DNA of 23,106 bases from a virus. The stretch is from the IMG/VR virus record IMGVR_UViG_3300044638_007655, positions 1-23,106 of that record; one strand, 5' to 3'. The translations under genes and the position numbers were made by a program. Positions 9,888 to 23,106 of the stretch are shown here, in pieces (position 1 is the first letter of the stretch; every line of letters starts with the position of its first letter). The notes beneath the pieces were generated by a model. The model searched no databases, had not been told where the DNA came from, and saw only the letters and a program-made list of their open reading frames with translations.

Positions 9888-12260
9888 ATGAACTTCAAAG
9901 ATCTTTTAAAGTTAACCGAAGCCTCCCGCACTGCCTCCGACTCCTTTAGGACTACTGGGGAAGCTATCGCTAAAGAAAAGGCTACGGGAAACGCAACATC
10001 CAATAAATCAAAGGATGCAGCCCGTAAAAGAGTTGAAAGATCAAAACAAATCCCAAGAGATAGAAAATCCAAAGGGGAATTGGTAAAAGAAGTTATTGCT
10101 GTAAAAACTGCTTCTGGTAGAATCCAATTAATTTTTAAAGACTCTTTTAATAAAGAGAACCATGTAAAATTAAATAAAGGAGATACATTAACGGAAGATG
10201 AAGCAAAGAGTTTTACAAATGATCCAAAATTTGAACAGACTCGTGCGTCCAAATTACTATTTGGTGAATTAAAGAAACAAGAAGACAAAGAAGAAAAAGC
10301 ACCAAAAACAGCTGAAAAAACTGGTGATAAACCAAAAGCAAAAGAAGGTGAGCAAGAAACCGCTGAAGCTCAACCACAGAAGGCTAAACGTCTATCTAAA
10401 GAAGAAATTCTAAAAGCAATGCAGGGTATGGATACCAATCAAATGGCATCTATGCCATTAGATTTACAACAAGAATACTTTAAGAGTATTAGAGCTCCTA
10501 AAAAGTCTGAAGAGTTTGATAATATTACATTTGAAGCACTTACCAATCAATTTGGTATTAATACTACCTCAAATTTACCATATAATCAACAAGTAATAAA
10601 TGCTTTAATTTTTGCTGCCAAATTAAAAGCTGGAGCAAGTGAACAAGAACTTAATGCATTGTTTTCTGGATCAGCTAACTCTTTAGATTTTACAAAAACT
10701 GCTTTTTTACAAGCCAATAAAATTCTATCACAAATTGGTGATGAATGTATTCAGAATCTATTATCAAGTATTGAATCTGGTAACTCTAGTATGTATTCTG
10801 ATGGTGTTCCAGAATTACAATGCGGTGAATATAAATTTAAGATTTCTGCTGGTGGTGAATTCACTATGAGTACAAATTCATTGAATCAAAGTGGAAAAAT
10901 TGTTAGAGGTATTATTGGTAATGCTTTGACCAAAACAATAATGGATCCAGAAATGGCAAAATCTGATCCATCTGTAAAGAAACTTTTAACAGATGTAGAA
11001 GCATCGAGTGAAAAGTTTTCACCACAATTGTTGCCCGATCAATCACTTCAAATGATTTTAAGTAATCCAGAACTGGTAACTAAATTTCAATCCTATGAGA
11101 TTTTTTCTCCATCAGGACAGAGCTTGGGTTTTGCCATAGATCAAAATGGAAATATAAATCCAGCAGTTTCTGTTTCAGCATATGAAGCTTCGATTAAAAA
11201 GTCTGGTAGTGAATTATTTAAAGGTGGAAAAAAGAATCCATTTTTAATTTCTTTGACCAAGAATATATTACAATCATCTTTACGCGGAGATGGTTTAGTT
11301 GATCCTAAAAATGCACCCAATCACATAATCACAACAAATGGTGTATTTCCAATGTCTGATGATTATATGCAGGAGATTGCTAAAACTGCCTCTATTAGTA
11401 TCAAACAGAATGAACAGGCATTAGATACTTCTAATATATCAACATATAAAAAATCCAGTATTCAAAATTTACAAAAATTTCGAACAGTTATTGAAGCAAC
11501 CGAAGACAAATCAAATCTGAAGAAACTTTTTATTGATAGAAAAACAATTGATCCACTGGGAATAATTGTTAAAAATTCAATAGACAATCTTTCTTTTGAT
11601 ATTAATGCTAGTTTATTACCTGGATTTAAACCAGAAGAGTTGAATTCTATAGAATACAATTATGTTACTATTGGAAAAAAGACAATTAAGATTCCAGTAA
11701 ATAAAACTGAAAAAGTTACTGATAAATTGTTAGGTGAAAATTACTTTGTTATTAATGAAATGCTTGTTGAATCTTTGACAAATAATTTCTTATTATCTAA
11801 ATTAAATAAAGTAAATATCATTTCTGATACTGAACGAAGTATGATTGAACATTATGGTCCTCTTCTATTAGAAGAAGATGATCTACGTGCGGGATGCCTG
11901 ATTCCAATTTTAAATAAAATTTACTCATATACAATCGAAAATACAGAATATCTTATTCCTTTGTTTGAAGATATTATTGCTGATAATTTAGAAGAAAAGT
12001 ATATTAGAAATTATAAAAAAGAATATAAGAATTATCACGGCAAACCAAAGCAGAAAAAAGAACGTGCATCAAGAACTGCAGCACGTGAACTTATGATCAA
12101 AAAGGGTGTTGTAAAAAAGGGATCTAAAAAGGATATTGATCATAAAAATGCTATTCGTAATGGTGGTTCTAACAGTGTAAAGAATTTACGTGTTAGAGAT
12201 CGTTCTGAAAACCGAGCCGATAATGGTCATCATAAAGGTGAAACCCAAAACAGGAAATGA
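9888..12260 (+). CDS. Large protein with capsid-targeting-like leader and C-terminal HNH-like domain
   Basis: A 790-residue protein, probably packed in the phage head. Its N-terminus, MNFKDLLKLTEA, resembles the T4 capsid-targeting sequence and has a prohead-protease site LTE11|A12. Next come a basic segment (40-65), a Lys/Glu/Ala-rich linker (about 125-170) and a long ordered region (about 170-690) of no family I recognise. The last 85 residues look like a phage HNH-type domain: a basic lead (RASRTAARELMIKKG), then DIDHKNAI with H752, GGSNSVKNLRV with N766 and RSENRAD with N775, an H-N-N arrangement. One reading is a nuclease delivered with the DNA; another is a structural protein with a borrowed DNA-binding domain. 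It overlaps the next gene's region by the TGA at 12258-12260. Confidence 0.75.
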   Translation: MNFKDLLKLTEASRTASDSFRTTGEAIAKEKATGNATSNKSKDAARKRVERSKQIPRDRKSKGELVKEVIAVKTASGRIQLIFKDSFNKENHVKLNKGDTLTEDEAKSFTNDPKFEQTRASKLLFGELKKQEDKEEKAPKTAEKTGDKPKAKEGEQETAEAQPQKAKRLSKEEILKAMQGMDTNQMASMPLDLQQEYFKSIRAPKKSEEFDNITFEALTNQFGINTTSNLPYNQQVINALIFAAKLKAGASEQELNALFSGSANSLDFTKTAFLQANKILSQIGDECIQNLLSSIESGNSSMYSDGVPELQCGEYKFKISAGGEFTMSTNSLNQSGKIVRGIIGNALTKTIMDPEMAKSDPSVKKLLTDVEASSEKFSPQLLPDQSLQMILSNPELVTKFQSYEIFSPSGQSLGFAIDQNGNINPAVSVSAYEASIKKSGSELFKGGKKNPFLISLTKNILQSSLRGDGLVDPKNAPNHIITTNGVFPMSDDYMQEIAKTASISIKQNEQALDTSNISTYKKSSIQNLQKFRTVIEATEDKSNLKKLFIDRKTIDPLGIIVKNSIDNLSFDINASLLPGFKPEELNSIEYNYVTIGKKTIKIPVNKTEKVTDKLLGENYFVINEMLVESLTNNFLLSKLNKVNIISDTERSMIEHYGPLLLEEDDLRAGCLIPILNKIYSYTIENTEYLIPLFEDIIADNLEEKYIRNYKKEYKNYHGKPKQKKERASRTAARELMIKKGVVKKGSKKDIDHKNAIRNGGSNSVKNLRVRDRSENRADNGHHKGETQNRK

Positions 12261-12262
12261 TC

Positions 12263-13159
12263 ATGAATTCTAAAAACGTTAACATTTTACTTGAAAAGAT
12301 TTTTGCTGAAACAGGACTTGGTAAATGGTTAGCTAAGAAAGCTGCCAATAAGAATTCTAGTTCTATTAAAAAGCGTAATGCTGATAAGAAGACTATGAAA
12401 AGTAAAAAAGAGATTACTGAGAGTAAAGGTAAGAAGCCAGTATTTGTAAAAACTGGTGTTTCTGAAATTAAAGAATCTTATAATGTGTTTTCAGTAGAAG
12501 GTGCTTCTAATGTATTTAAAATGAATTATGATACGATTGAAGCACATGAATTGCTTCCATGTGATGTAATCATCAATGAATCGGGTCAAATGTTAGAAGT
12601 AGATTATATTGAAGAGTCTAATGGACTTTATCATGTAACATTTTTAAATAATAATTGTGAAAGTAATGAAATTTTTGAAGCTAATACAGTAATGGGTTTT
12701 GTAGATAATATTGAAGAAACTTCATATAATGAATACAATGAAAAAATTGAAATATATGAAGAAGGAAATAAAAAAGTCAAATTAAATAAAATTATGGCTG
12801 GTGATGTTAAAAAGTATAAGGTTTTTGTAAAGAATGACAAGGGTAATGTAGTTAAAGTTAATTTTGGTGACCCTAACATGGAAATCAAGCGGGATAACCC
12901 AGCTCGTCGTCGTAATTTCCGTGCAAGACACAGGTGTGATACTCCTGGACCGCGCTGGAAGGCACGCTACTGGGCTTGCAGAACTTGGAGCACCAAATCT
13001 GTAACTGATATGTTGAAAGAGGGTACAGAGGTTTTACCAGATAATAAGGTACAGAATTTAACTAAGTCTATCTCTGCCAATACACTTAATTCATTGCTTA
13101 CAAAACCATATGATCCCAATTTATATGGGTTAATGAATAAGAAAATAATTCAGAACTAA
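12263..13159 (+). CDS. Late protein with conserved Arg/Cys/Trp-rich phage domain
   Basis: Function unknown; 298 residues. The N-terminus (VNILLEKIFAET) is only loosely like a capsid-targeting leader and is followed by a Lys-rich segment. The middle (about 65-160) is acidic and beta-rich. Residues about 180-243 form a compact domain, KYKVFVKNDKGNVVKVNFGD then MEIKRDNPARRRNF, RARHRCDTPGP and KARYWACRTWS, which I have seen as a recurrent module in large marine phage proteins but cannot name. It probably binds a metal or nucleic acid through its Cys, His and Arg. This module is encoded by a GC-rich patch unlike its surroundings. I prefer the ATG at 12263 to that at 12257 because AGGA lies at a proper distance from it. 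Confidence 0.75.
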   Translation: MNSKNVNILLEKIFAETGLGKWLAKKAANKNSSSIKKRNADKKTMKSKKEITESKGKKPVFVKTGVSEIKESYNVFSVEGASNVFKMNYDTIEAHELLPCDVIINESGQMLEVDYIEESNGLYHVTFLNNNCESNEIFEANTVMGFVDNIEETSYNEYNEKIEIYEEGNKKVKLNKIMAGDVKKYKVFVKNDKGNVVKVNFGDPNMEIKRDNPARRRNFRARHRCDTPGPRWKARYWACRTWSTKSVTDMLKEGTEVLPDNKVQNLTKSISANTLNSLLTKPYDPNLYGLMNKKIIQN

Positions 13160-13162
13160 ATA
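13156..13162 (+). promoter_or_regulatory. Late promoter box CTAAATA overlapping a stop codon
   Basis: CTAAATA includes the TAA stop (13157-13159) of the upstream gene and ends 12 bases before the ATG at 13175. No Shine-Dalgarno sequence follows. Confidence 0.55.
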
Positions 13163-13174
13163 TAAAGAACACCA

Positions 13175-13720
13175 ATGAAATTTAAACAATTATTAACCAA
13201 AATTAACGTATTACAAGAAAACGCACCAGAACATACCTTTGGTGGTGGTCTTTATATTGGTGATCCTCAAGGTAGATTAGGTCAATCAGCTTTAACTGAT
13301 AAGGGTACTTTCAACGTAAAGCTACCGCACTCAATTGATGCCATCAATGCTATGCTTTATGGTTTCTCATCAAGAGAATATATTGATCCAGATGGAGTAA
13401 TGGCAGTCATTAAGCAAAAGTTAAATCACTTTGGTTTTGATTTTGGTTACAAGGCTGCATTACAAGACGGACTAAACACATTTGAGTTAGTTCAATATGG
13501 TAGTCCTCAACTTGGTGTATATGGTCAAAATCCTTACGATGATGTAAATGTAAAGGGTTTCAAACAAGGTGATGGAATTAAAGAAAAATTAGGACATTCG
13601 TTAGCTTTATCTGTTACTGTTACTAAGCAACCAAATTTCTTAAAGAAACTTACTATAACAATCGTACCAAGTGTTGATTCTTCGTTAAATAGTGGGACCG
13701 ATTGTGGCTGCATGCATTAA
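13175..13720 (+). CDS. Late protein of unknown function with capsid-targeting-like leader
   Basis: A 181-residue protein not assigned to a family. Its start, MKFKQLLTKINVLQEN, has the Phe-Lys-x-Leu-Leu pattern of capsid-targeting leaders and a possible cleavage site LQE15|N16. The rest looks well folded and mixed alpha/beta: GGGLYIGDPQGRLG, a long helix near DAINAMLYGF, FGFDFGYKAAL and a C-terminal beta segment LKKLTITIVPSVD. It ends in CGCMH, two cysteines two residues apart, which could bind metal. The next gene starts 8 bases after its stop. Position among late genes suggests a virion or head-assembly role. Confidence 0.7.
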   Translation: MKFKQLLTKINVLQENAPEHTFGGGLYIGDPQGRLGQSALTDKGTFNVKLPHSIDAINAMLYGFSSREYIDPDGVMAVIKQKLNHFGFDFGYKAALQDGLNTFELVQYGSPQLGVYGQNPYDDVNVKGFKQGDGIKEKLGHSLALSVTVTKQPNFLKKLTITIVPSVDSSLNSGTDCGCMH

Positions 13721-13727
13721 TATAACA

Positions 13728-14126
13728 ATGAATCCAAAAAGTAGCTTTTTGAATGAAGAAGACTTTTTAGACTTCTGTCAAAAGACTTATTTTAATCCAG
13801 AATGCTCTGGAAAAAATGAATTTATTGATGATTTAAAGCGTATTAAATACGTTAAGAGACTATTACAAAAAATTCATAAGCATAAGACGTTAAAATCTAT
13901 AAGAGAACGTCTTATAATGAACCATATTATTATTTTAAAAAATGTATTTGGTGAAGAAAATTGTATTAGAATTTTGTTTTATAAATTAGAACCAAGACTA
14001 CATTCATATCTAAAATCTTTTCTTGTGTTTCTAGAATTTAATAACGTATCAATTCCTGAAGTGAATTATAATAAAATTAATACAGACCCTAGAGTTGATC
14101 GAAAGTTGTTACAGGCTGAAAACTAA
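13728..14126 (+). CDS. Small helical phage protein (DUF7207-like)
   Basis: A 132-residue, mostly helical protein of the type often found in T4-like genomes: an N-terminal FLDFCQKTYF segment, then FIDDLKRIKYVKRLLQKIHKH, a core ERLIMNHIIILKNVFGEENCIRILFYKL and LKSFLVFLEF. The RLxxNHIIILxNVFG signature is what I recall for a conserved phage family of unknown function (DUF7207, from memory). I use the ATG at 13728, 8 bases after the previous stop. The GTG at 13692 would overlap the previous gene by 29 bases and add twelve residues with no homology support. No Shine-Dalgarno sequence or late box is seen directly upstream, so it is probably read from the upstream promoter. Confidence 0.7.
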   Translation: MNPKSSFLNEEDFLDFCQKTYFNPECSGKNEFIDDLKRIKYVKRLLQKIHKHKTLKSIRERLIMNHIIILKNVFGEENCIRILFYKLEPRLHSYLKSFLVFLEFNNVSIPEVNYNKINTDPRVDRKLLQAEN

Positions 14127-14129
14127 ATA
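14123..14129 (+). promoter_or_regulatory. Late promoter box CTAAATA overlapping a stop codon
   Basis: CTAAATA contains the upstream TAA stop (14124-14126) and ends 7 bases before the ATG at 14137. No Shine-Dalgarno sequence is present between them. Confidence 0.65.
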
Positions 14130-14136
14130 TTAGTAT

Positions 14137-15693
14137 ATGCAGTCTTCATCAGCTTACATACCTTCATTCTCATTATCTAAATTTTCTGAAACTGTTACGG
14201 CTCCTTATACGAGTCTAGCAGCCTTTTCATCTGGAGTAATCGATGCAAATGGTAATCTACTTAAACCAGAAAGTAGCATAGATCCTTACGAATACTTTAT
14301 AATTAAATTGAAGAAGATTTTTGATCAACTTCCTATGAGTTATACAAAAGCTCGTTTAGCTAGTTATGTTTCTACTTTCCAGATGTTTAATGAGGAAGCA
14401 GAATCATTTGGATTAAATTCAAACGAATTTTTATTCTTTATTGAAGGATATCTTGAATCTGGTTTATTAATCAATGAAGATATGGGTACTGGTATGATTT
14501 CTGGTGGTGGTGCTCCCGGTACTCTTGGTACTCCTCAAGATGTTAAGAATACTGGTGCAGTAATGGGATACGATAAACCTTTGGAAGCACCTATGTTTAC
14601 TCGTCTACCAGTAGAAATGTTTGATGTGGATGATAAAGAATTTAAGAATTTTAAAAACGCCAAGGCATGGAAACATATTCCAGATAGCGAAACTAAAAGA
14701 TATCTTAAAAGATTTCAACAACGAAATCCTTCAGGTAAAATGGCAATAAGATCAAATAAAGATATTCATTGGATTTCATATCCTGCTAAAAGTTTTGTTG
14801 AAGAATACGATTTAGAATTTTTAGATATATTAAATGAAAGTTTTACAGAAATGTTACCAAATAACAAAGATCAATTAGAATCTAAATCAAAAAAAACATT
14901 GATAACTATGAAGATACCTAAAGTTCCAGAAAGATTAGGTAAAGAAACAGAAAATGCGTTTAATTTATTTGGCAATAGTACAGTACAAGGTAGTAATGTA
15001 ACTAAAGAAAACGCTATGTTGGGTGCAATAGAAAAAAAATTACAGAGTGCTGGTTATAAATTAAATAATAATGTAACACACAAAAGTGAATTAAAAGTTG
15101 GAGAATATAGTACTTTTGGAGAAGGTGGTGTGTTAAAAGACCATTCTGATATTCATGTTGGTATGGCACATCCAGAAAAAAAAGGTGAGGTTTATCCTTT
15201 AGGAATTGAATCTGGATATAGTATCAGTCAGACAAAACCATATTTAATGCAACTCGGTACACATATTAAAATTCCTAAAATTTTAAAAAGACTTGGTTTA
15301 ACTCCAACTTCATCTAGTTTAGCTACTAAAGAAGAACAAATTAATGTTGGTGATGAAATAATTGAGCGCGGAACAGTTAGTGACTCAAAAAAGAGAATTG
15401 ATTTATGGCCATCACTAAAAAGATTATTTCCAAAAACCATAGAACATGCAAAGCAATTGTTTCGCCCAATGGCGCATGAAGCGATCAGAACTAAATCTGA
15501 TGATATTAGTGTTATAGGTCATACACAAAGAGTTTCAACTATTCATCATAGAAAAAATGATACATTTCAAAGAGAATTGGCTCAACAATTATTAGATCAA
15601 ATGAATATGCACCATACACATGACTTAGATGAACTTACTCTAAATAAATCACCATCTTATGGTGGTTCACAGAAAAAGAAAGAATATCAATAA
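14137..15693 (+). CDS. Late, probably virion-associated protein of 518 residues
   Basis: Function unknown. The N-terminal 120 residues are helical (YEYFIIKLKKIFDQLP, LASYVSTFQMFNEEAESFG) and are followed by a Gly-rich link (GMISGGGAPGTLG). Then comes a module PMFTRLPVEMFDVDDKEFKN, KAWKHIPDSETKRYLKRFQQ and GKMAIRS, which recalls a domain recurrent in head-region proteins of T4-like marine phages, although I cannot name it. The second half has a His-rich, low-complexity tail (MHHTHDLDEL). No enzyme motif is seen. The N-terminal SLSKFSETV is only loosely like a capsid-targeting leader. It is the last gene of the late block and ends at a strong hairpin terminator immediately after its stop. Confidence 0.7.
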   Translation: MQSSSAYIPSFSLSKFSETVTAPYTSLAAFSSGVIDANGNLLKPESSIDPYEYFIIKLKKIFDQLPMSYTKARLASYVSTFQMFNEEAESFGLNSNEFLFFIEGYLESGLLINEDMGTGMISGGGAPGTLGTPQDVKNTGAVMGYDKPLEAPMFTRLPVEMFDVDDKEFKNFKNAKAWKHIPDSETKRYLKRFQQRNPSGKMAIRSNKDIHWISYPAKSFVEEYDLEFLDILNESFTEMLPNNKDQLESKSKKTLITMKIPKVPERLGKETENAFNLFGNSTVQGSNVTKENAMLGAIEKKLQSAGYKLNNNVTHKSELKVGEYSTFGEGGVLKDHSDIHVGMAHPEKKGEVYPLGIESGYSISQTKPYLMQLGTHIKIPKILKRLGLTPTSSSLATKEEQINVGDEIIERGTVSDSKKRIDLWPSLKRLFPKTIEHAKQLFRPMAHEAIRTKSDDISVIGHTQRVSTIHHRKNDTFQRELAQQLLDQMNMHHTHDLDELTLNKSPSYGGSQKKKEYQ

Positions 15694-15716
15694 AAATCCC
15701 CCTTTCGGGGGATTTT
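15693..15716. terminator. Bidirectional intrinsic terminator between converging genes
   Basis: A perfect 10-bp inverted repeat, AAAATCCCCC, loop TTTC, GGGGGATTTT, fills the gap between the stop of the 518-residue gene (15691-15693) and the stop of the minus-strand RMF-like gene (15718-15720). A and T runs on either side of the GC stem give a T tract on both strands, so it can stop transcription from both directions. Confidence 0.85.
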
Positions 15717-15717
15717 G

Positions 15718-15930
15718 TTATTCCTGAATAAATGTCTTACAACACTTGGGCTTTGAACAACCAGCATTTTGTCTGGCTTCAGTAATTATCTTGGTATGAG
15801 CATCATCCCAACCAGTAGCCCACTCTTGCCAATAAACACTGGTAGACTCATAAACATTTGATGCCTTCTCTGCACCACCCATACGGGCTGCATATCCCTT
15901 TTGATATGCTTCACCTGCAATATATGTCAT
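15718..15930 (-). CDS. RMF/CrpP-like small protein
   Basis: A 70-residue protein whose core, GEAYQKGYAARMGG then YWQEWATGWDDAH (about 6-44), follows the ribosome modulation factor pattern of A..rGy.A...G....Y....W..GW..A. In E. coli, RMF dimerises and silences 70S ribosomes in stationary phase; related small proteins called CrpP occur on mobile elements. The C-terminus here adds a cysteine-rich tail (NAGCSKPKCCKTF) not found in RMF. The start overlaps the upstream gene's stop (ATGA) and GGGAG lies upstream. A role in adjusting host translation is attractive, but family similarity does not prove activity. It is the last gene before the bidirectional terminator. Confidence 0.65.
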   Translation of the reverse strand: MTYIAGEAYQKGYAARMGGAEKASNVYESTSVYWQEWATGWDDAHTKIITEARQNAGCSKPKCCKTFIQE

Positions 15931-16361
15931 TGGAACTCTCCCGGATTGTCGATAGGCTTAATAACGATCTGATTAAGCAACTTATCTAATGCCTTAACAT
16001 GTGCAAATTGTTCCTTAATAGCAAGGTATCCACGAATCTCAATAAGTTTAAAATATTCTTCTTGAGTAAAAGGAGTAGTCTTAGGCTTATGCTTAATAGG
16101 TCGACGAGAAGGCTTTGGTGTATTCTGTGGATTAAATGGTTTCTTCTTATTGTCTTGAGCCCATTTATCTAAAAGATCATCCATGTTAAGATAGTCACGA
16201 AGACTATCTGCAGGATTGTCTCCATTACGCATTTGATCCCACATCTTCTTGAACTCTGGGCTAGTATTACCAAAGAAAAAGAATCCATTATTTGGATTGT
16301 TCTCTTCGTTATCATCACCATTTTGCCAGTTTCTAAAATCGTTATAATCTGAATTTCCCAT
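15927..16361 (-). CDS. Acidic, Asn-rich hypothetical protein
   Basis: Not recognised; 144 residues. The N-terminal third is rich in Asn, Asp and Glu and has four consecutive phenylalanines (GFFFFGN, about 27-33). A helical part follows (FKKMWDQMRNG, LRDYLNMDDLLDKWAQ), then a basic Pro/Lys linker (about 72-92) and a C-terminal helix with EEYFKLIEIRGYLAIKEQFA. AAAGGA 6 bases before the ATG gives a clear ribosome binding site, as expected for a gene inside an operon. Its TGA overlaps the start of the RMF-like gene. Confidence 0.65.
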   Translation of the reverse strand: MGNSDYNDFRNWQNGDDNEENNPNNGFFFFGNTSPEFKKMWDQMRNGDNPADSLRDYLNMDDLLDKWAQDNKKKPFNPQNTPKPSRRPIKHKPKTTPFTQEEYFKLIEIRGYLAIKEQFAHVKALDKLLNQIVIKPIDNPGEFQ

Positions 16362-16370
16362 TAGTTTCCT

Positions 16371-16667
16371 TTAGACATCAAAAAATTGTTCGTAAACTTG
16401 CTTACCACGGTTATCTGTAACAGAGACAAATCGAACATGACGTTCAATTGAATCACTAATATTTAGAGGGTCTTTAGGACCAAACTCAATGGTCTTAATC
16501 CATGCAGGACATCCACCAATGGAAATTCGAACCTCAGTTCCATTTGCATCAGTGCCATAAAAATCAAAGGAAGACTTCTCTCCATTATAATAGGTGAAAA
16601 AACAATCAATATGATCATACTTCTTTCGAAGTTCATCAAACGACATCATTGTGGCAGTTTTAGCCAT
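16371..16667 (-). CDS. Hypothetical protein of 98 residues
   Basis: Not recognised. The sequence opens MAKTATMMSFDELRKKYDHIDCFF and continues with an alternating beta pattern (SSFDFYGTDANGTEVRISIGG, HVRFVSVTD), ending VYEQFFDV. It looks like a small alpha/beta domain. The frame is open further upstream to 16739, but the ATG at 16667 is preferred because it overlaps the stop of the 57-residue gene in ATGGCTAA, a coupling arrangement, and has AAGAGA upstream. It is followed 9 bases later by the Asn-rich gene. Confidence 0.65.
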   Translation of the reverse strand: MAKTATMMSFDELRKKYDHIDCFFTYYNGEKSSFDFYGTDANGTEVRISIGGCPAWIKTIEFGPKDPLNISDSIERHVRFVSVTDNRGKQVYEQFFDV

Positions 16668-16833
16668 TGGGCAGTCTCTTTTGCTTGACACACACAGGAA
16701 GTTGACCACTCGCGTCAAGAATGCGAAGTGTACCAACACGAGCCTTCATAAGGCTCTGAATACGGTTGCGCTTCATGCGTTCTTCACGCTTCTTATGAGC
16801 ACGCTTAGTAATACGTTGTTTTGAGTTAGGCAT
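16660..16833 (-). CDS. Small, highly basic 57-residue protein
   Basis: Read by hand from the minus strand: it begins MPNSKQRITKRAHKKREERM, continues KRNRIQSLMKARVG and LRILDASGQLPV, and ends KRLPNG. The first half is a strongly basic helix (Lys/Arg runs), so nucleic acid or ribosome binding is possible; no family is recognised. Support for a real gene: a promoter of the same layout as two neighbours places its ATG exactly 6 bases after the -10 box, and its stop overlaps the next gene's start. A GGAG is present upstream but lies between the -35 and -10 boxes, so it would not be in the mRNA. Confidence 0.7.
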   Translation of the reverse strand: MPNSKQRITKRAHKKREERMKRNRIQSLMKARVGTLRILDASGQLPVCVKQKRLPNG

Positions 16834-16839
16834 AATAAT

Positions 16840-16867
16840 AATATACTCCGGTTTCTTTATTCGTCAA
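16840..16867 (-). promoter_or_regulatory. Sigma70-like promoter giving a leaderless 57-residue gene
   Basis: Minus strand TTGACG (16862-16867), 16 bases, TATATT (16840-16845), 6 bases, ATG at 16833. A start 7 bases after the -10 box falls on the A of the ATG. The -35 box overlaps the last codons of the upstream coiled-coil gene. Confidence 0.7.
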
Positions 16868-17222
16868 GCAAATCAACTCTGGATTGAAGATCATCGAGTT
16901 TATCCATGAGTTCTTCTAATTTTTCAGTAAAGTCAGTAAAGTTTTTAGATGTAAGAATGGTTTCTAGTTGTTTGAGTCGTTGTATTAAATGTTCATTTTT
17001 AATCTGTAATTCTTTCATTCGATCATTGAGTGCTTGATTGATAGCATTTTGGTTTGACCCAGGTTCGGTCAAACCATTTAGAGATGGATCGTATTCGTAA
17101 TGTTTAGGAGTTTTATACATTTTTTTAGCTTGCTTGGCTTTATCCAAGGCTTTATCTAGATTTAGCATCGCATCTTTCTTATAATATGACTTTGTTTTAA
17201 TTGAATCTGGGGGTGTTTCCAT
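16857..17222 (-). CDS. Coiled-coil hypothetical protein of 121 residues
   Basis: Function unknown. From METPPDSIKTKSYYKKD it runs through a Lys-rich helix (LDKALDKAKQAKKMYK) and a short Pro/Gly break near GLTEPGSNQN to a long C-terminal coiled coil with Leu/Ile heptads (MKELQIKNEHLIQRLKQLE, FTEKLEELMDKLDDLQSRVD). The frame allows a GTG start at 17237 and ATGs at 17228 and 17222. I choose 17222 because the -10 box TACAAT occupies 17229-17234, so the transcript should begin at or near 17222. Confidence 0.65.
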   Translation of the reverse strand: METPPDSIKTKSYYKKDAMLNLDKALDKAKQAKKMYKTPKHYEYDPSLNGLTEPGSNQNAINQALNDRMKELQIKNEHLIQRLKQLETILTSKNFTDFTEKLEELMDKLDDLQSRVDLLDE

Positions 17223-17228
17223 AGTCAT

Positions 17229-17256
17229 ATTGTACACATATCTAAGAGTAAGTCAA
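17229..17256 (-). promoter_or_regulatory. Sigma70-like promoter giving a leaderless coiled-coil gene
   Basis: Minus strand TTGACT (17251-17256), 16 bases, TACAAT (17229-17234), 6 bases, ATG at 17222. The spacing is identical to the promoters at 16840 and 17494. It lies just downstream of the tRNA-Tyr 3' end. Confidence 0.7.
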
Positions 17257-17264
17257 ATAATAAA

Positions 17265-17347
17265 TGCAAGAGGAGGGATTCGAACCTTCGTAGAAATTAA
17301 TCATCACATTTACAGTGTGACCTCGTTGACCGCTTGAGTACTCTTGC
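17265..17347 (-). tRNA. tRNA-Tyr (anticodon GTA), long variable arm
   Basis: On the minus strand the acceptor stem is perfect (GCAAGAG with CTCTTGC, discriminator A). The anticodon stem TCACA/TGTGA encloses loop CTGTAAA, giving anticodon GTA. The variable region is long, as in bacterial tRNA-Tyr. The T loop is TTCGAAT, with one A-C mismatch in the T stem. CCA is not encoded. It starts 5 bases after the stop of the 44-residue gene and is probably cut from the same transcript. Confidence 0.93.
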
Positions 17348-17352
17348 GTAGT

Positions 17353-17487
17353 TTATTTAGGTTCCTTTTTAGGCTTTTTCTTTACTGGCTTCTTCTTAAA
17401 AATTGCTTCATAATTTTTGCCATATTGTTCCAAATTTACGTGTCTGGGGGAACTACCCTTACCTGCACCATGTGAACCGTAAGTCAT
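17353..17487 (-). CDS. Lys-rich 44-residue protein
   Basis: Read by hand: MTYGSHGAGKGSSPRHVNLE, then QYGKNYEAIF and a Lys/Pro tail (KKKPVKKKPKKEPK). No family recognised; the basic tail suggests nucleic acid or ribosome contact. It is promoter-proximal on a transcript that also carries tRNA-Tyr. There is no Shine-Dalgarno sequence (the bases before the ATG read CTCCTTTT), but a near-consensus promoter places the predicted transcript start on the A of the ATG. The consistent promoter layout is the main support for this short gene. Confidence 0.65.
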   Translation of the reverse strand: MTYGSHGAGKGSSPRHVNLEQYGKNYEAIFKKKPVKKKPKKEPK

Positions 17488-17493
17488 AAAAGG

Positions 17494-17521
17494 AGTATAG
17501 CATATAGAACTTTTGTGTCAA
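17494..17521 (-). promoter_or_regulatory. Strong sigma70 promoter with extended -10, leaderless start
   Basis: Minus strand TTGACA (17516-17521, perfect -35), 16 bases, TATACT (17494-17499) with TGC directly upstream (extended -10), 6 bases, ATG at 17487. It drives the 44-residue gene and tRNA-Tyr. It abuts the plus-strand late box at 17522, making a back-to-back divergent pair. Confidence 0.85.
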
Positions 17522-17528
17522 CTAAATA
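17522..17528 (+). promoter_or_regulatory. Late promoter box CTAAATA, ATG 5 bases downstream
   Basis: CTAAATA then 5 bases then the ATG at 17534. By the T4 rule the start would be the A of the ATG. It rules out the in-frame TTG at 17513, which lies upstream of the box. Confidence 0.7.
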
Positions 17529-17533
17529 ATAAT

Positions 17534-18178
17534 ATGAAGAACAAAGGTTATTACGGTTGGATTCATTCCTTAAACGAAGCTGGTATGCAAGCCCAACAAA
17601 ATGGATTTGAAATGCTTACAGAACAGCGTTCATATAAAGGTGAAATGCTGAATGAAGCCTATAAGCCTAATCGCAGTGAAGCAGGAATAGCTGCAAAAAG
17701 AGCTCGTGAAGCTGCAGATACTGTAAAACGCCGTGAGAATAGAGAAGCTGCTGCTAAAGCAGCTGCTGCCGCTAAAAGTTCGGGTGGTGGAGAATTAAGT
17801 GATTTTGATTTTGATGGATTTCAGGATAGAGTTGCAGAAATAAGAGCTGAAAAACAATCTGCTGGTACTGGTGTACAACGTGTAGAAACTGGATATCGTG
17901 GAGATGCTGATGACGCATTTGATCCAACAGACCCAGATTCAGGTACAGAAGAAATTGGTAGATTACCATCTTTCCCATGGGCACATGATTCTAAACCAAC
18001 CGATGTTGATAAAGATGGTGATGCCGATGCTCAAGATGTAAAATTAGATGCATCTGATAATGTAATAGGTGATGAAGAAGAACCAGAAAATGAAGGAAAA
18101 TACGAATTTCCTAGCAAAAATTGGAAAACAGTCAAGGAATCAATATCACAAAAGATTTCTAGAATGTTAAGAAATTAA
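17534..18178 (+). CDS. Acidic late protein with three L-x-E sites and a calcium-loop motif
   Basis: Function unknown; 214 residues. The N-terminus contains three T4-type prohead-protease sites in 41 residues: SLNE15|A, MLTE30|Q and MLNE41|A, so a leader could be trimmed stepwise in the head. Next come an Ala/Arg/Glu-rich helix (about 48-82, including AAAKAAAAAK), a Gly/Ser link and an acidic region. Residues 157-168 (DVDKDGDADAQD) fit the EF-hand or dockerin-type calcium loop at positions 1, 3, 5, 6 and 12. The C-terminus is basic (ISQKISRMLRN). It has its own late box and no Shine-Dalgarno sequence. Its stop overlaps that of the convergent minus-strand gene by 3 bases. Confidence 0.7.
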   Translation: MKNKGYYGWIHSLNEAGMQAQQNGFEMLTEQRSYKGEMLNEAYKPNRSEAGIAAKRAREAADTVKRRENREAAAKAAAAAKSSGGGELSDFDFDGFQDRVAEIRAEKQSAGTGVQRVETGYRGDADDAFDPTDPDSGTEEIGRLPSFPWAHDSKPTDVDKDGDADAQDVKLDASDNVIGDEEEPENEGKYEFPSKNWKTVKESISQKISRMLRN

Positions 18179-18381
18179 AGATCTGGGTTTCCAATTTCCC
18201 TAGTCCATTCCCATTCTTGCCACAACATTCTAGCAAAGTCATCGTCAGGATCATGACGGCGCATTTCTAATTCTGCTAGACCCGGTGCTGAGATGGCAGC
18301 ATCCATTTCCCATGATAGCCAAAACCACTCACCTTTTTTAAGAAGGTTGTTGGTAATGAGACATCTAATCTCTTTAGACAC
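18175..18381 (-). CDS. Trp-rich small hypothetical protein
   Basis: Not recognised; 68 residues, rich in Trp and acidic residues (GEWFWLSWEMD, MLWQEWEWTRE). It starts with GTG 3 bases after the upstream stop, and no better start is seen, so it is probably translated by coupling. The composition looks like a real folded protein. Convergent with the acidic late gene. Confidence 0.55.
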   Translation of the reverse strand: MSKEIRCLITNNLLKKGEWFWLSWEMDAAISAPGLAELEMRRHDPDDDFARMLWQEWEWTREIGNPDL

Positions 18382-18384
18382 AAT

Positions 18385-18636
18385 TTAAAATAATTCGTAA
18401 GCTTTCATAGCTTGACTAGCAGTCCAACCATATGTAAAAATTGGATAAATCAAAGTTTGATTTGCTCCAAGAGAAATTGGACCCACAGATGTAATTGCTC
18501 CTGTTGGAGCTAAACTCTGTACTGTGAGCGTTCCAGCCACAGCACCATTGACAAATAACACTCCTTCATTACTTCTGCCACCAGTGGCTCCAGCAACGGT
18601 AGTTCCGAATTCTTTTAATTTTCTAAATGTTCTCAT
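18385..18636 (-). CDS. Small beta-rich late protein ending YELF (paralogue A)
   Basis: An 83-residue protein with a basic start (MRTFRKLKEFGT), then mostly Gly, Val, Thr, Ser and Ala in a beta pattern (EGVLFVNGAVAGTLTVQS, GPISLGANQTLIYPIF), a YGW segment and the C-terminus AMKAYELF. It resembles its upstream neighbour over the whole length, with a shared MR-x-[FY]-[RK]-K-[LI]-K start, an N-x-G-x-L-x-[IV]-N step and the YELF end. The frame continues upstream to 18699, but the ATG at 18636 sits 5 bases after a late box and aligns with the paralogue start. A virion surface or tail protein is plausible; no function is known. Confidence 0.7.
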   Translation of the reverse strand: MRTFRKLKEFGTTVAGATGGRSNEGVLFVNGAVAGTLTVQSLAPTGAITSVGPISLGANQTLIYPIFTYGWTASQAMKAYELF

Positions 18637-18641
18637 AATAT

Positions 18642-18648
18642 TATTTAT
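18642..18648 (-). promoter_or_regulatory. Late promoter box ATAAATA, ATG 5 bases downstream
   Basis: Minus strand ATAAATA then 5 bases then ATG at 18636. It lies 2 bases after the stop codon (18651-18653) of paralogue B. No Shine-Dalgarno sequence. Confidence 0.65.
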
Positions 18649-18650
18649 TC

Positions 18651-18935
18651 TTAAAAAAGTTCGTATCCTATAAGACCAGTTGCACTTGTATCGGTCCATG
18701 AAGAAATTGTAAATGGGATTAATGAAAAATTTGGATTTGTAGCTAATTGAACCGCATTAACATTTACTGCATTTACTGTTAATTCTAATGCAGTAACTGT
18801 TTTATCTACATTTATTATATTTACAGTAAATTCAGCATTATTTACTGTAGTTGGATTGATCACCAACATACCTTTATTTGCTTGACTAGTAGTAACACCA
18901 GTTCCTAAAGGTTTTATTTTTTTATATAATCTCAT
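18651..18935 (-). CDS. Small beta-rich late protein ending YELF (paralogue B)
   Basis: A 94-residue protein: basic start MRLYKKIKPLGTGV, NKGMLVINPTTVNN, then a Val/Asn/Thr-rich repeat-like stretch (FTVNIINVDKTVTALELTVNAV), SLIPFTISSW and the C-terminus GLIGYELF. Its start and end match paralogue A downstream, suggesting tandem duplication followed by divergence. It begins one base after the stop of the upstream gene, so it is probably translationally coupled. A repeated virion decoration or fibre-associated protein is a reasonable guess. Confidence 0.7.
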   Translation of the reverse strand: MRLYKKIKPLGTGVTTSQANKGMLVINPTTVNNAEFTVNIINVDKTVTALELTVNAVNVNAVQLATNPNFSLIPFTISSWTDTSATGLIGYELF

Positions 18936-18936
18936 T

Positions 18937-19347
18937 TTAATATAGTGTTATTATTACAGGAGCACTTACCCAACTTAATCCTGGAGTAGAATCAGCTGTA
19001 ATGGTAATTTTTTGATATGTAAATGGAAAAAATGAAGAATTAAAAGCATTACCACCCCGTACCATTGCAATATCATAAGATCTTGATGTATTAGCACCAA
19101 CATCTCGTTTAAATTGCATAAACATATCACCAAAACTTCCAGTTTCTAGATTAGAAGAAAAAGTTATTCCAGCACCAGCTGGTGTAGTTACTGTTACTGT
19201 TGGATAATATCCTACAGAAACATCATCTACTCCAACAAAAAAAATAAACCCTTTATTATTTTTAAATGGAGGAGTATAATCTAACGTTGCTGCTGGTGCA
19301 GATTCAACTTTATATACAAATGGTTTATAATTATAATCTACAATCAT
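18937..19347 (-). CDS. Beta-rich late protein, likely virion component
   Basis: A 136-residue protein rich in Thr, Val, Gly, Phe and Tyr with a beta-sandwich-like pattern (KGFIFFVGVDDVSVGYYP, TVTVTTPAGAGITF, YQKITITADSTPGLSW), ending PVIITLY. The NNKGFIFFVG step recalls the NKGMLVIN and NEGVLFVN steps of the two smaller neighbours, so it may be a third, more distant member. The frame runs on to a GTG at 19380, but the ATG at 19347 lies 7 bases after a late box whose TAA is the stop of the upstream gene. It has no enzyme motif. Confidence 0.65.
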   Translation of the reverse strand: MIVDYNYKPFVYKVESAPAATLDYTPPFKNNKGFIFFVGVDDVSVGYYPTVTVTTPAGAGITFSSNLETGSFGDMFMQFKRDVGANTSRSYDIAMVRGGNAFNSSFFPFTYQKITITADSTPGLSWVSAPVIITLY

Positions 19348-19354
19348 TCTACCA

Positions 19355-19361
19355 TATTTAG
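19355..19361 (-). promoter_or_regulatory. Late promoter box CTAAATA overlapping a stop codon
   Basis: Minus strand CTAAATA contains the TAA stop (19358-19360) of the upstream gene and lies 7 bases before the ATG at 19347, fixing that start over the longer GTG frame. Confidence 0.6.
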
Positions 19362-19648
19362 GAATCTTTAAAGGATTCACTTAGCCAAAAGGTTTTCAAT
19401 ATTTCTGGATTATCTACAAAATTTGACATCCAGATACAGTGATACTTATTGTGTTTTACTGGCTTACATACTCCAACATGGTGTGTTGCATCTTCACTAT
19501 ATTGATTGACAACAACTTTAAAATTTGTTTTGCTTTCAACTTCATCTATAAAAGATTGAATAAAAGCTGGATATACTTTTACAGGTACTGGTGGAAGAAT
19601 TGGGGTTTTTCTTTTTTTAGCTGGAGCTGTTTTGCGTATTTTTGCCAT
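19358..19648 (-). CDS. Basic-tailed hypothetical protein of 96 residues
   Basis: Not recognised. It begins MAKIRKTAPAKKRKT, a Lys/Arg-rich tail, followed by a Pro-rich link (PILPPVPVKVYP) and a small domain with FIQSFIDEVESKTNFKVVV, HHVGVCKPVKHNKYHCIWMSN and a C-terminal helix. The C and H residues (HHxxxC and HKYHC-like) could bind metal, but the pattern is not a standard finger. The frame stays open to 19690; the ATG at 19648 is the better start because the extension would overlap the divergent gene's start. A weak promoter can be drawn upstream. Confidence 0.6.
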   Translation of the reverse strand: MAKIRKTAPAKKRKTPILPPVPVKVYPAFIQSFIDEVESKTNFKVVVNQYSEDATHHVGVCKPVKHNKYHCIWMSNFVDNPEILKTFWLSESFKDS

Positions 19649-19662
19649 GATTGTATAGATGA

Positions 19663-19690
19663 AATATAATGTATAAATAGTATTATGCAA
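19663..19690 (-). promoter_or_regulatory. Possible weak sigma70-like promoter
   Basis: Minus strand TTGCAT (19685-19690), 16 bases, TATATT (19663-19668), 14 bases before the ATG at 19648. The spacing agrees with the other promoters, but the -35 box matches consensus at only three positions. Confidence 0.3.
19672..19679 (+). promoter_or_regulatory. Perfect late promoter box TATAAATA, ATG 5 bases downstream
   Basis: TATAAATA then 5 bases then the ATG at 19685. A second in-frame ATG follows at 19694. No Shine-Dalgarno sequence between box and gene. Confidence 0.75.
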
Positions 19691-20386
19691 GAAATGAATG
19701 AAGGAAATGTTTATAACATGCAGGATGTTTTTGGTTCAAAACTAAATTCTTCCGCTTTAGGCATTAAAAAAGTCAATAAAGAAATCAAATCTCAATTATT
19801 TGATTCTTTTAAACGTAATAAAATTAATAATAAAAAAGAAATAGTAAAAAAAACTTTTACTAATATTTTTGAAGCAGATGCACCACCTGTACTAGCTCCG
19901 GGTAAAGGTCAAGAAGCAGTTGGTAATGTATTTCCACCATTAACTGCAGATAACAAAACAGGTGCTGGAGTTGTTGTTGTAACAAATCCGGCAGGAACAT
20001 CAACAGACAGAGCAAGTTTTGGTATGGGATTTGAACTAGCTCCAACTTTAACAGCTTCAGTACAACAGTTTGTCAATCAATATGCTGATAAATACGATAA
20101 CAGTGCGGTAAGTAGAGATTATCAGGCAAAAGAACAAGCTAAGTTCAATTTACCACCAGAAGATAAAATTGTAACATGGCAAACAATGAATAATGCTGTT
20201 GCCAATCATCTTAATCAAAATTTAAAACAATTGTTACAAAAATATAATCTATATGTGTCAGATGAACAATCAGGTCGTGCAGCACCAAATGTTCCAACAG
20301 AAACATATCATTACGATCAATATTCTCGACAAGTTTATAAAATTAAAAACTATAATGACAATAGCTCTAATGGAAACAACACATGA
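19685..20386 (+). CDS. Late protein with possible internal prohead-protease site
   Basis: Function unknown; 233 residues. The first 60 residues are basic and Asn/Lys-rich. They end in VKKTFTNIFEADAPP, where IFE|A could be a T4-type cleavage site and TFTNIFE resembles a displaced capsid-targeting sequence. The middle is Gly/Pro/Val-rich and probably disordered, and then a helical part follows (LTASVQQFVNQYADKYDN, WQTMNNAVANHLNQNLKQLLQKY). The C-terminus is polar (NYNDNSSNGNN). It is first in a plus-strand late operon; its TGA overlaps the next ATG. M4 at 19694 is an alternative start. Confidence 0.65.
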   Translation: MQEMNEGNVYNMQDVFGSKLNSSALGIKKVNKEIKSQLFDSFKRNKINNKKEIVKKTFTNIFEADAPPVLAPGKGQEAVGNVFPPLTADNKTGAGVVVVTNPAGTSTDRASFGMGFELAPTLTASVQQFVNQYADKYDNSAVSRDYQAKEQAKFNLPPEDKIVTWQTMNNAVANHLNQNLKQLLQKYNLYVSDEQSGRAAPNVPTETYHYDQYSRQVYKIKNYNDNSSNGNNT

Positions 20387-20775
20387 AAAAACCAATTTTA
20401 TCTTTTAAAGCTTTTATGAATGAAGAATTGGCATTAGTTGGTCCTCCAGGTGGACCTGGAATGCCTCAGATGGGAATGCCTCCGGGTGGGATGCCAGCTC
20501 CTGGTATTCCTTCTAAAAAAGGTAAAAAGGGTATGAAGAGTATGCCACAACAACCCCAAATGGATCCTTTAAAACCACAACCTTATCAGGGGTTTACTAA
20601 TACACCAGAAACCGAAGCAAGACTTAGAAATTTAATTGTAACTCAGTTTGATGATCCTGATACTGCAGAAGAAGAAATTCCACAAGATGCTAAATGGCAG
20701 ACTTTAAATACTTCTCAAGGAAATGCATATCAACGAGAAGTTATGAAACTAAAAGCTTCTCACGGAATGCTATAA
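20383..20775 (+). CDS. Pro/Met-rich late protein with capsid-targeting-like leader
   Basis: A 130-residue protein. The start, MKKPILSFKAFMNEELA, contains the SFKAFMNE core of a capsid-targeting-like leader, with MNE14|E15 as a less ideal cleavage site. Residues 17-45 are a Gly/Pro/Met repeat region (GPPGGPGMPQMGMPPGGMP) followed by a basic patch (KKGKKGMK). The C-terminal 60 residues are helical (TEARLRNLIVTQFDDPD, AYQREVMKLKASHGML). No enzyme motif. The start overlaps the upstream stop (ATGA) and GGAAA lies upstream, as expected for an internal operon gene. Confidence 0.65.
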   Translation: MKKPILSFKAFMNEELALVGPPGGPGMPQMGMPPGGMPAPGIPSKKGKKGMKSMPQQPQMDPLKPQPYQGFTNTPETEARLRNLIVTQFDDPDTAEEEIPQDAKWQTLNTSQGNAYQREVMKLKASHGML

Positions 20776-20792
20776 TAAATTAAGTTTATTAT
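20772..20792. repeat. Short AT inverted repeat over the next start codon
   Basis: ATAATAAA, 5 bases, TTTATTAT is a perfect 8-bp inverted repeat that includes the stop (20773-20775) of one gene and the first bases of the ATG at 20791 of the next. It contains AATAAATT, a degenerate late box. A hairpin of only A-T pairs would be weak. Confidence 0.5.
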
Positions 20793-21660
20793 GATTGTAT
20801 ACAAAGAAAAAAAATGGTTAGTAACTGACTCTACTGGTAAAAAGGTATTGGGGACTCACTCATCTAAAAATAAAGCTATTAAACAATTGGCTGCAATTGA
20901 AATTTCAAAAAATAGCCGTAAAGAGGTTAGAGAATCTAAAATGCTTTCTTTTAAAGAATTTTTAAAAGAAAATACTTCTTCAACTCTTGAATACCATAAT
21001 GAACTAAATCCAAAGATTTGGGATGGTATGCAATTAAGAAAAGATATTAAATCAAAACTTTTAGATATTGGACGTACTTGGGTAGAGTGGGTTGGATTAC
21101 CAGAAAGTGCGGTAGAAGATTATATTCTAGTTGGTGGTAATGCAAGTTACGCATATACATCATATTCAGATATTGATCTTCACATTTTAGTTGATAAAAG
21201 AAAAATTGATAACTGCCCAAATCTAATAGATGACTATCTTAAAGATAAGAAACAACTTTGGTCACTTACACACGATATAACCATTCTAGGACATGATGTA
21301 GAAGTATATGCTCAAGACATCAAAGAGCCTGTGCCACCTGACCAGGGGGCTTATAGCCTTACTAGCGACCAATGGATCACTGAGCCTAAGCAACAAGAAG
21401 TAAATTTAGAAGATCCAAGTATTGAAAAGAAGGTCAACGAATATATTGAAAAAATTGATGATTTAATTTCATCAAATGCGGAAGATGAATCTTTTGATAA
21501 ACTCAAAGAAAAACTTAGAAATATGAGAAGTTCTGGACTCAAAAAGTCTGGAGAAGTGAGTATTGAGAATATGGTATTCAAGGAACTTCGAAATAGAGGT
21601 TACTTGGATAAAATGAATGCGTACATTAAATCAACACAGGATAAACGATTAAGTTTATAA
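20791..21660 (+). CDS. Nucleotidyltransferase-fold protein with an internal capsid-targeting-like leader
   Basis: Predicted nucleotidyltransferase, perhaps packaged in the head. Residues 1-40 form a small module (KKWLVTDSTGKKVLGTHSS then KAIKQLAAIEISK) that I recall in other phage proteins. Residue 51 is a methionine followed by LSFKEFLKE60|N61, almost a textbook T4-type capsid-targeting sequence. The catalytic part follows: YILVGGNASYAYTSYSDIDLHILVD with G115-G116, S119 and the metal pair D127-x-D129, and a likely third acid in DVEVYAQD (D169 or E171). The C-terminal 80 residues are helical and charged. An internal start at 20941 (GAGA 8 bases upstream) would make a 239-residue form with the leader at its N-terminus. 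Substrate unknown: tRNA, protein or nucleotide are all possible. Confidence 0.75.
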   Translation: MIVYKEKKWLVTDSTGKKVLGTHSSKNKAIKQLAAIEISKNSRKEVRESKMLSFKEFLKENTSSTLEYHNELNPKIWDGMQLRKDIKSKLLDIGRTWVEWVGLPESAVEDYILVGGNASYAYTSYSDIDLHILVDKRKIDNCPNLIDDYLKDKKQLWSLTHDITILGHDVEVYAQDIKEPVPPDQGAYSLTSDQWITEPKQQEVNLEDPSIEKKVNEYIEKIDDLISSNAEDESFDKLKEKLRNMRSSGLKKSGEVSIENMVFKELRNRGYLDKMNAYIKSTQDKRLSL

Positions 21661-21663
21661 ATA
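21656..21663 (+). promoter_or_regulatory. Perfect late promoter box TATAAATA overlapping a stop, ATG 5 bases downstream
   Basis: TATAAATA contains the nucleotidyltransferase stop TAA (21658-21660) and is followed after 5 bases by the ATG at 21669. Confidence 0.75.
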
Positions 21664-21668
21664 ATAAT

Positions 21669-22673
21669 ATGAATAACTTAGAATACTACAAAACACTCTA
21701 TGCACAACTTAAAGCCCAAATAAATCTTGTTGAAGCAAATATTGCACAAGCACAAGCGCAAGCCGTAGCAGCAACTGATATGACAGACATGGTATCAAGT
21801 GCACCTATTAAAACTACTGCTGGAACAGCCCCTCCAGGAGGTATTCCAATCCCTCCTGGATTAACACCAGCACCTGGAATATTACCAAGTTGGCCTATGC
21901 CTCCAATTGGTAGTCCAAGTTGGAATACATGGTTAAGTGAATGGGTACGATTAAATGCTCCTACACCACCACGTAGAGGAGAAACGCCAGCACAATATCA
22001 AGAAAGAAGAAGAGCAAATCAAGATTTACAGAAACAATTTGGAAGATGGCGTGATATGTACTGGAGATTGTCACAAGAAAGACCAATGATGGCGGGAGTT
22101 CAAGAAAGTACTAATTTGATTGAGAAACGATTTGATATTAGTAAGTTTAACAAATCAAAGAATAAGAGTAAGAAATCTACCAAAGATTATGATGGTGATG
22201 GTGAAGTAGAATCATCAGAGGATGAGTACTTTGGATCTAAAGATAAGGCAATCAAAAAGGCTATTGTTGATAAAAAGAAAAAGAAAACCCTTAAAGAAGG
22301 TACAGTTATTTCTGATGGTCAATTAAGCTACGGTGGTTTCCCAAGAATTTTAAAGGAAGCTAAAGGTCCATCATCTGCAGATATGCTTCAAGATTTTTTA
22401 GACAATGATGAAGGTGGATCTGCAGGGGGTTCTATTGATCCACAAATTCATTCTGAAATTTCTCAACACCTTAGTCAATTGATCAAAAAAGGAAGTTTAG
22501 ATCAAGCTGATTCTTCACATGCAGAAGGTCTTAAAGCATCATATGAACTTTTAGGTGGTAAAGGTGCATTTGCTGCACACATTGAAGATACATTGCAACG
22601 TATTGGTGATCAAAAAGATGCACGTGGTATGCGCGATGATCAAAATAAGATGTATTTTAGAGGAAACAGATAA
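21669..22673 (+). CDS. Late protein with EF-hand-type calcium loop and prohead-protease-like site
   Basis: Function unknown; 334 residues. It has an N-terminal coiled coil (EYYKTLYAQLKAQINLVEANIAQAQAQA), a Pro-rich region with Trp (about 54-100), and a charged helix (YQERRRANQDLQKQFGRW). Residues 173-184 read DYDGDGEVESSE, which fits all coordinating positions of a canonical 12-residue EF-hand loop; this KDYDGDG...DEYFGSKDKA module recurs in phage proteins. A Lys-rich run (KKKKKTLKE) leads to FPRILKE230|AKG, a capsid-targeting-like segment in mid-protein, so the C-terminal domain (about 231-334, helical) may be released by cleavage. It has its own late box and is followed by a terminator. Confidence 0.7.
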   Translation: MNNLEYYKTLYAQLKAQINLVEANIAQAQAQAVAATDMTDMVSSAPIKTTAGTAPPGGIPIPPGLTPAPGILPSWPMPPIGSPSWNTWLSEWVRLNAPTPPRRGETPAQYQERRRANQDLQKQFGRWRDMYWRLSQERPMMAGVQESTNLIEKRFDISKFNKSKNKSKKSTKDYDGDGEVESSEDEYFGSKDKAIKKAIVDKKKKKTLKEGTVISDGQLSYGGFPRILKEAKGPSSADMLQDFLDNDEGGSAGGSIDPQIHSEISQHLSQLIKKGSLDQADSSHAEGLKASYELLGGKGAFAAHIEDTLQRIGDQKDARGMRDDQNKMYFRGNR

Positions 22674-22703
22674 ATCGTACTAGAATTTGAACCTTTAGTA
22701 TGT

Positions 22704-22736
22704 CAACCCCCGAGAAGTTCGGGGGTTGTTTCTTTT
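22704..22736 (+). terminator. Rho-independent terminator
   Basis: A perfect 10-bp stem, CAACCCCCGA, loop GAAGT, TCGGGGGTTG, then TTTCTTTT. It ends the late unit and directly precedes the next late promoter box. Confidence 0.9.
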
Positions 22737-22737
22737 A

Positions 22738-22744
22738 ATAAATA
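22738..22744 (+). promoter_or_regulatory. Late promoter box ATAAATA for the last gene
   Basis: ATAAATA lies 7 bases before the ATG at 22752 and one base after the terminator's T tract. No Shine-Dalgarno sequence. Confidence 0.7.
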
Positions 22745-22751
22745 TTGTAGT

Positions 22752-23106
22752 ATGAAAACCTTTAAAGAATATTTACTTGAAGCAAACGATATTGTACCGT
22801 TTAATTACGGAGATAAAAAACCAAGAATAAATGACCACAGAGATCATGTACTTGGTCAGTTTTTACATTTTATCAAAAGTGAACTTCCAAATGTAAAAGG
22901 TGATGATGCAGGTATTCATGGTGAATTTAAAAAACACTTAGATGGATCAATATCTAAGATTTTAGGTGATGACTCTCAACACTTTGGAGAATTGCATAAA
23001 AATCTTACTACTCAATATGGTGAGCCTGATTTATATGATGCTCTTCAACATATAACCAAAACTACTCGTGATTCTCTTATAAAAGAAAGAGGATCAAGTG
23101 TTAGTG
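22752..23106 (+). CDS. Late protein with clear capsid-targeting leader (3' end outside window)
   Basis: The first 118 residues are visible and the frame is still open at the window edge. The start, MKTFKEYLLEANDI, is strikingly like the T4 internal-protein leader (about MKTYQEFIAE, cleaved by the prohead protease), with the predicted cut at LLE10|A11. After the leader comes a mixed polar, helical region with many His residues (DHRDHVLGQFLHFIKSEL, GIHGEFKKHLDGSISKIL, SQHFGELHKNL). No enzyme motif is seen in this part; the function is unknown and the rest of the protein is needed. The next gene or domain cannot be judged from here. Confidence 0.8.
   Translation, partial: MKTFKEYLLEANDIVPFNYGDKKPRINDHRDHVLGQFLHFIKSELPNVKGDDAGIHGEFKKHLDGSISKILGDDSQHFGELHKNLTTQYGEPDLYDALQHITKTTRDSLIKERGSSVS

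Follow-up and report, generated by a model that had tools for sequence, protein, structure and literature searches.

Candidate capsid-targeting leaders on many proteins of an environmental T4-like phage

A 23,106-nucleotide fragment of an environmental T4-superfamily phage (IMG/VR record IMGVR_UViG_3300044638_007655, referred to here as the window) carries many genes whose products begin with a short, probably cleaved leader. The leader resembles the tag used by phage T4 to load proteins into its head, so the virus probably delivers a set of proteins, including some enzymes, together with its DNA. This reading, proposed in an earlier note for a stock of head-packaged proteins from this region, is supported by our analysis and we hold it with high confidence, although presence in the virion, cleavage and injection are inferred for this phage. 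Delivery to the host follows from T4 by analogy and is less certain than targeting and cleavage.

All the leader peptides listed by the earlier note lie where it placed them. The clearest leaders, those at 22752 and 20941, match the T4 capsid targeting sequence (CTS) in register. Experiments in T4 assign targeting to residues 4 and 7 and processing to residues 8 and 10 (PMC9026906), which correspond here to F4, F/Y7, L8 and E10. We use the term “class A leader” for this type. When the strict T4 register is written as a DNA pattern (ATG N6 TWY N6 TWY HTN NNN GAR), it gives two matches in the window against 0.10 expected, and 0 of 100 shuffles reach two. In T4, the same pattern picks exactly three places, ipII, ipIII and gp61.1. 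It gives 36 hits in nine related contigs (about 2–8 per contig) against 3 for the reversed pattern, and 0 in T5, SPO1 and phiKZ.

The window alone is therefore modest evidence, while its relatives make the evidence strong. In 14 related contigs, the protein motif ends at residue 10 in 33 of 1255 proteins and in 18 of 459 protein families, where about 0.5 families would be expected from a background of 0.001 per position (P about 5e-23 for families). Internal methionines give 4 of 4644. Secondary peaks at residues 13 and 14 cover spacing variants such as the leader at 20383. The genome is 35% G+C, and AT-rich start regions could happen to encode Lys, Phe, Leu and Glu. However, this chance explanation is refuted by the shuffled, reversed and internal-methionine controls, and by the observation that synonymous codons vary at the motif positions.

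The window encodes ThyX, a class II ribonucleotide reductase, a Cas4-like exonuclease (phrog_298) and many proteins without a known family. Relatives were found with the 14137 product, which has no relative in annotated phages, and with the DNA polymerase of one of these relatives, and they place the window in the T4 superfamily. Four long relatives (108–137 kb), with DNA polymerases 75–82% identical to the one used as query, share 16–24 of 29 window genes. All four encode a gp21-type S77 protease (E 2e-37 to 1e-41) and a gp23 capsid protein (E below 1e-133). The window is too short to show these genes, so its own protease is inferred. Searches for gp21 and gp23 in the first ten short contigs were empty, as expected of fragments without head genes. 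Prohead proteins of the relatives carry similar sites when read by eye, for example MKLITELTE/D in gp21 and HLTE/D in the major capsid protein (MCP); here and below, a slash marks the predicted cut.

The candidate leaders in the window are collected in the table below. Two of them are in exact register, while those at 20383, 9888, 13175 and 6527 have altered spacing.

Candidate leader-bearing genes of the window, with predicted cut sites (coordinates are those of the window)
Coordinates	Strand	Product	Leader or junction	Residue before predicted cut	Remarks
4656..6524	+	Weak candidate	ALNE/S at about residue 80; NLTE/A further on		Shared with close relatives only
6527..8587	+	Large low-complexity protein	MSKQHSIVKYLLE/QRYQQNILNE/A (two sites)	Glu23 (6593-6595)	
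9888..12260	+	790-residue protein	MNFKDLLKLTE/A	Glu11 (9918-9920)	Weak HNH-like C-terminal module (phrog_4590); present in 13 of 13 related contigs
12257..13159	+	Weaker candidate	MNSKNVNILLEKIFAE/T (possible leader, from 12263)		C-terminal DUF5754-like stretch
13175..13720	+		MKFKQLLTKINVLQE/N	Glu15 (13217-13219)	CTAAATA box 19 bases upstream; mature fold not resolved (model pLDDT 55)
17534..18178	+		MKNKGYYGWIHSLNE/AGMQAQQNGFEMLTE/Q	Glu30 (second site)	
19685..20386	+	Long propeptide of 63 residues	TNIFE/A	Glu63 (19871-19873)	
20383..20775	+	Gly/Pro/Met-rich protein	MKKPILSFKAFMNE/E	Glu14 (20422-20424)	
20791..21660	+	Nucleotidyltransferase-like protein	MLSFKEFLKE/N (20941-20970), class A		Separate 44-residue N-terminal module, then leader, then NTase domain
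21669..22673	+		MNNLEYYKTLYAQLKAQINLVE/A, variant of class B	Glu22 (21732-21734)	Later conserved junction YGGFPRILKE/A at residue 230; NTAAATA late-promoter-like box 12 bases upstream
22752..23106	+	Leader-bearing protein, runs off the window	MKTFKEYLLE/A, class A	Glu10 (22779-22781)	Full-length relatives are 160-163 aa

Conservation of the predicted cut sites has been examined site by site. In the 13175 product the Glu is invariant in all 14 orthologues, with L, I, V or Y two or three residues before it, while the residue between varies. In the 9888 product an LxE-, IxE- or VxE-like junction is kept in nearly all 14 orthologues with varied spacing. The leader at 22752 is kept (MKTFKQYLLE, MKSFLQFLSE), as is that at 20383, with orthologues carrying SFKAFINE, SFKEFLNE and, in the distant orthologue, an exact register-10 leader (MLKFSQFINE). 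Glu23 of the 6527 product is kept in most orthologues. The leader at 20941 is also kept, but 20941, given as a start by the earlier note, may be an internal start, since the ORF opens at 20791 with a module present in six relatives. On the other hand, two close relatives start at or near the leader.

Some of the sites in the earlier note require correction. The first site at 17534, SLNE/A, is not conserved (SLNQ, SLNS, TLKN), while the second is conserved in most orthologues, and the 4656 site is weak; neither the first 17534 site nor the 4656 site is supported by conservation as a firm leader. By comparison, the 19685 and 21669 products, listed in the note among more distant matches, are better than it had supposed. 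The long propeptide at 19685 ends NIFE/ADAP, while two distant orthologues start MSKYLKYFIE/ANAP or MSKYLKYFTE/TNDP, that is, with 10-residue class A leaders joined at the same point.

The class A leader is not restricted to the window. A scan of IMG/VR for the back-translated leader returned at least 120 stretches, and in the 80 loci read almost every match opens an ORF of normal length or is cut by the contig end. Of the 11 contigs of 58 kb or more found by the leader alone, 9 have S77 and 10 have gp23. No T7-type RNA polymerase was found in 33 leader-bearing records, which argues only weakly against T7-type podophages as a source of the leader because no positive control was detected in that search. 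Over 203 distinct proteins, residue 11, which is not part of the pattern, is Ser or Ala in 111 (55%) against about 15% background. The cargo includes a SAM methyltransferase (PF13489), lysozyme-like proteins with or without LysM, and DUF6321 and DUF5872 proteins. By inspection of motifs only, it also includes nucleotidyltransferase-, HAD-phosphatase-, P-loop-kinase- and ligase-like proteins and two HExxH proteins.

A second type of leader (M-x5-YYKNLxEQLQ...LxE), which we term class B, has also been identified. It is a longer helix leader of about 22–32 residues. Forty-nine distinct IMG/VR proteins match M-x5-YYKNL[SC]EQLQ, and all have LxE between residues 23 and 31. Because LxE also occurs at residues 13 and 17 in this helix, composition explains part of this observation, and the better argument is cargo exchange. 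Three cargo families occur behind both class A and class B leaders, and their similarity starts at or next to LxE (MKSFIQYLQE/SGLKKAL, NLIE/AGLKRAL and AQLNE/GGLKKAL).

These observations also bear on the possibility that the N-terminal helix is a docking motif for some other partner and is never cut, with LxE being part of the helix. A short amphipathic helix with F4, F7 and L8 would suit docking, cleavage has not been seen here, and class B has LxE at several heptad positions. However, the Ser/Ala bias at residue 11, the joining of leaders of 10, 23 and 28 residues to the same mature sequence at LxE, the invariant Glu with a variable neighbour, and the exact T4 register make this alternative very unlikely. 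The preferred explanation is that the leaders are modular capsid-targeting propeptides of the T4 kind. In this model, the leader helix docks its protein into the prohead core during late infection, the gp21-type protease cuts after L/I-x-E and frees the mature protein inside the head, and the protein leaves with the DNA at the next infection.

Class B genes carry an NTAAATA late-promoter-like box in 15 of 21 cases against 22% (P 2e-6). The box is also found with MCP genes (4 of 4) but not with DNA polymerase, UvsX or gp41 genes (0 of 22). Class A genes show only a non-significant excess (10 of 30, P 0.10), and NrdJ, which is not a head gene, also has the box (8 of 8).

Independent support comes from cyanophage S-SM1, whose virion proteome contained the putative cytidylyltransferase T4-GC190 (PMC3037559). 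This gene (SSM1_190) begins MKKFSAFLNE/A, and its P-SSM2 (PSSM2_194, MKSFSQFLTE/T), S-SM2, DSL-LC02 and S-CRM01 relatives have comparable leaders. The cargo family differs from those of the window, and the leader was not mentioned in the passages of the proteome paper that we read. This shows a leader-bearing enzyme inside purified particles of a related phage, though not its cleaved end, and there is no virion proteome of the present phage or a close relative.

The leader-bearing proteins could alternatively be prohead core or scaffold parts, like gp22, gp67 and gp68, that enter the prohead by the leader and are cut by gp21 but serve assembly or DNA condensation and are not delivered to the host. 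Many of them are low-complexity, proline-rich or charged, several have more than one LxE site, and the core proteins of relatives carry similar sites. On the other hand, several cargoes are enzymes (methyltransferase, lysozyme, nucleotidyltransferases), the set varies greatly between relatives, the leader-bearing cytidylyltransferase stays in mature S-SM1 virions, and T4 proteins with this leader are ejected (PMC9026906). We therefore regard this alternative as unlikely.

By comparison with the T4 internal proteins IPI, IPII, IPIII and Alt, which carry the CTS and are cut by gp21, the leader is alike, but the cargo is unrelated and more varied. No Pfam or PHROGs match to these families was found, so the claim is for the leader and not for the mature proteins. 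The number of tagged proteins, the longer propeptides and the second, exchangeable leader also differ from T4. None of the papers found was seen to describe such tags in cyanophages or environmental T4-like phages, and no open text contained the leader strings, subscription papers not being covered. It is somewhat more likely than not that environmental T4-superfamily phages load an extensive, fast-changing set of effectors and enzymes into their heads with two interchangeable address tags, the T4-like class A leader and a previously unrecognised class B leader. Packaged cargo could then be predicted from sequence alone. The proteins that phages deliver with their DNA are mostly known from a few phages. 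A sequence-readable, interchangeable packaging tag would let the injected repertoire of uncultured T4-like phages be listed from genomes, and it points to enzymes acting in the first moments of infection. The class B tag is a possible second loading signal beside that of T4.

Giant phages SPN3US and phiKZ also have many head proteins with cut N-terminal propeptides, which are inferred to be ejected (PMC5694885). Their protease is of the S80 type with other cleavage motifs, and the propeptides are often above 100 residues.

At least one cargo in the window is an enzyme by family. The 20941 product has the GG-x-DxD pattern of nucleotidyltransferases, and an orthologue passes the Pfam NTP_transf_2 (PF01909) cut-off (21.8 bits against 21). 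Its structural model (pLDDT 81, with the leader residues low) shows only weak fold matches to polymerase-beta-like NTases.

In phage T4, the protein gp61.1, which is annotated as hypothetical, begins MKTFKEFIKE and is a candidate for a further T4 capsid-targeted protein. A conserved junction, [YF]GGFP[RK]..xE with an invariant Glu, has been observed in the 21669 product and in the related contigs G003, G006, G007, G009, G010, G014, and G017. It is found both inside long proteins and at about residue 32 of short ones, and is possibly a further processing site or leader type.

The leader of the nucleotidyltransferase-like protein is preceded by a 44-residue module (KKWLVTDSTGKKVLGTHSSK.., phrog_3684). 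This module is present in six relatives and absent in two close ones, while in G014 it is seen at a protein start. The 14137 product carries a C-terminal extension found in only a few relatives (L001, L002, L003/G003), whereas most end near residue 234. In G012, one of the long relatives, a stretch with unusual ORFs, for which no relatives were noticed in the clade, is a possible insert or assembly artefact.

Three adjacent small genes of unknown function are located between leader genes and are missing from several relatives. A trypsin-like serine protease (PF00089) with a lipoprotein-like signal is found in only two of the relatives.

Locations of the additional features in the window, in T4 and in G012
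Feature	Sequence	Position	Strand
gp61.1	T4 (AF158101)	18966-19130	
[YF]GGFP[RK]..xE junction	window	21669-22673 (residues about 200-230)	
44-residue module	window	20791-20931	
Three small genes	window	18385-19380	-
Trypsin-like serine protease	window	2473-3270	
C-terminal extension of the 14137 product	window	14839-15690	
Stretch with unusual ORFs	G012	about 81-93 kb
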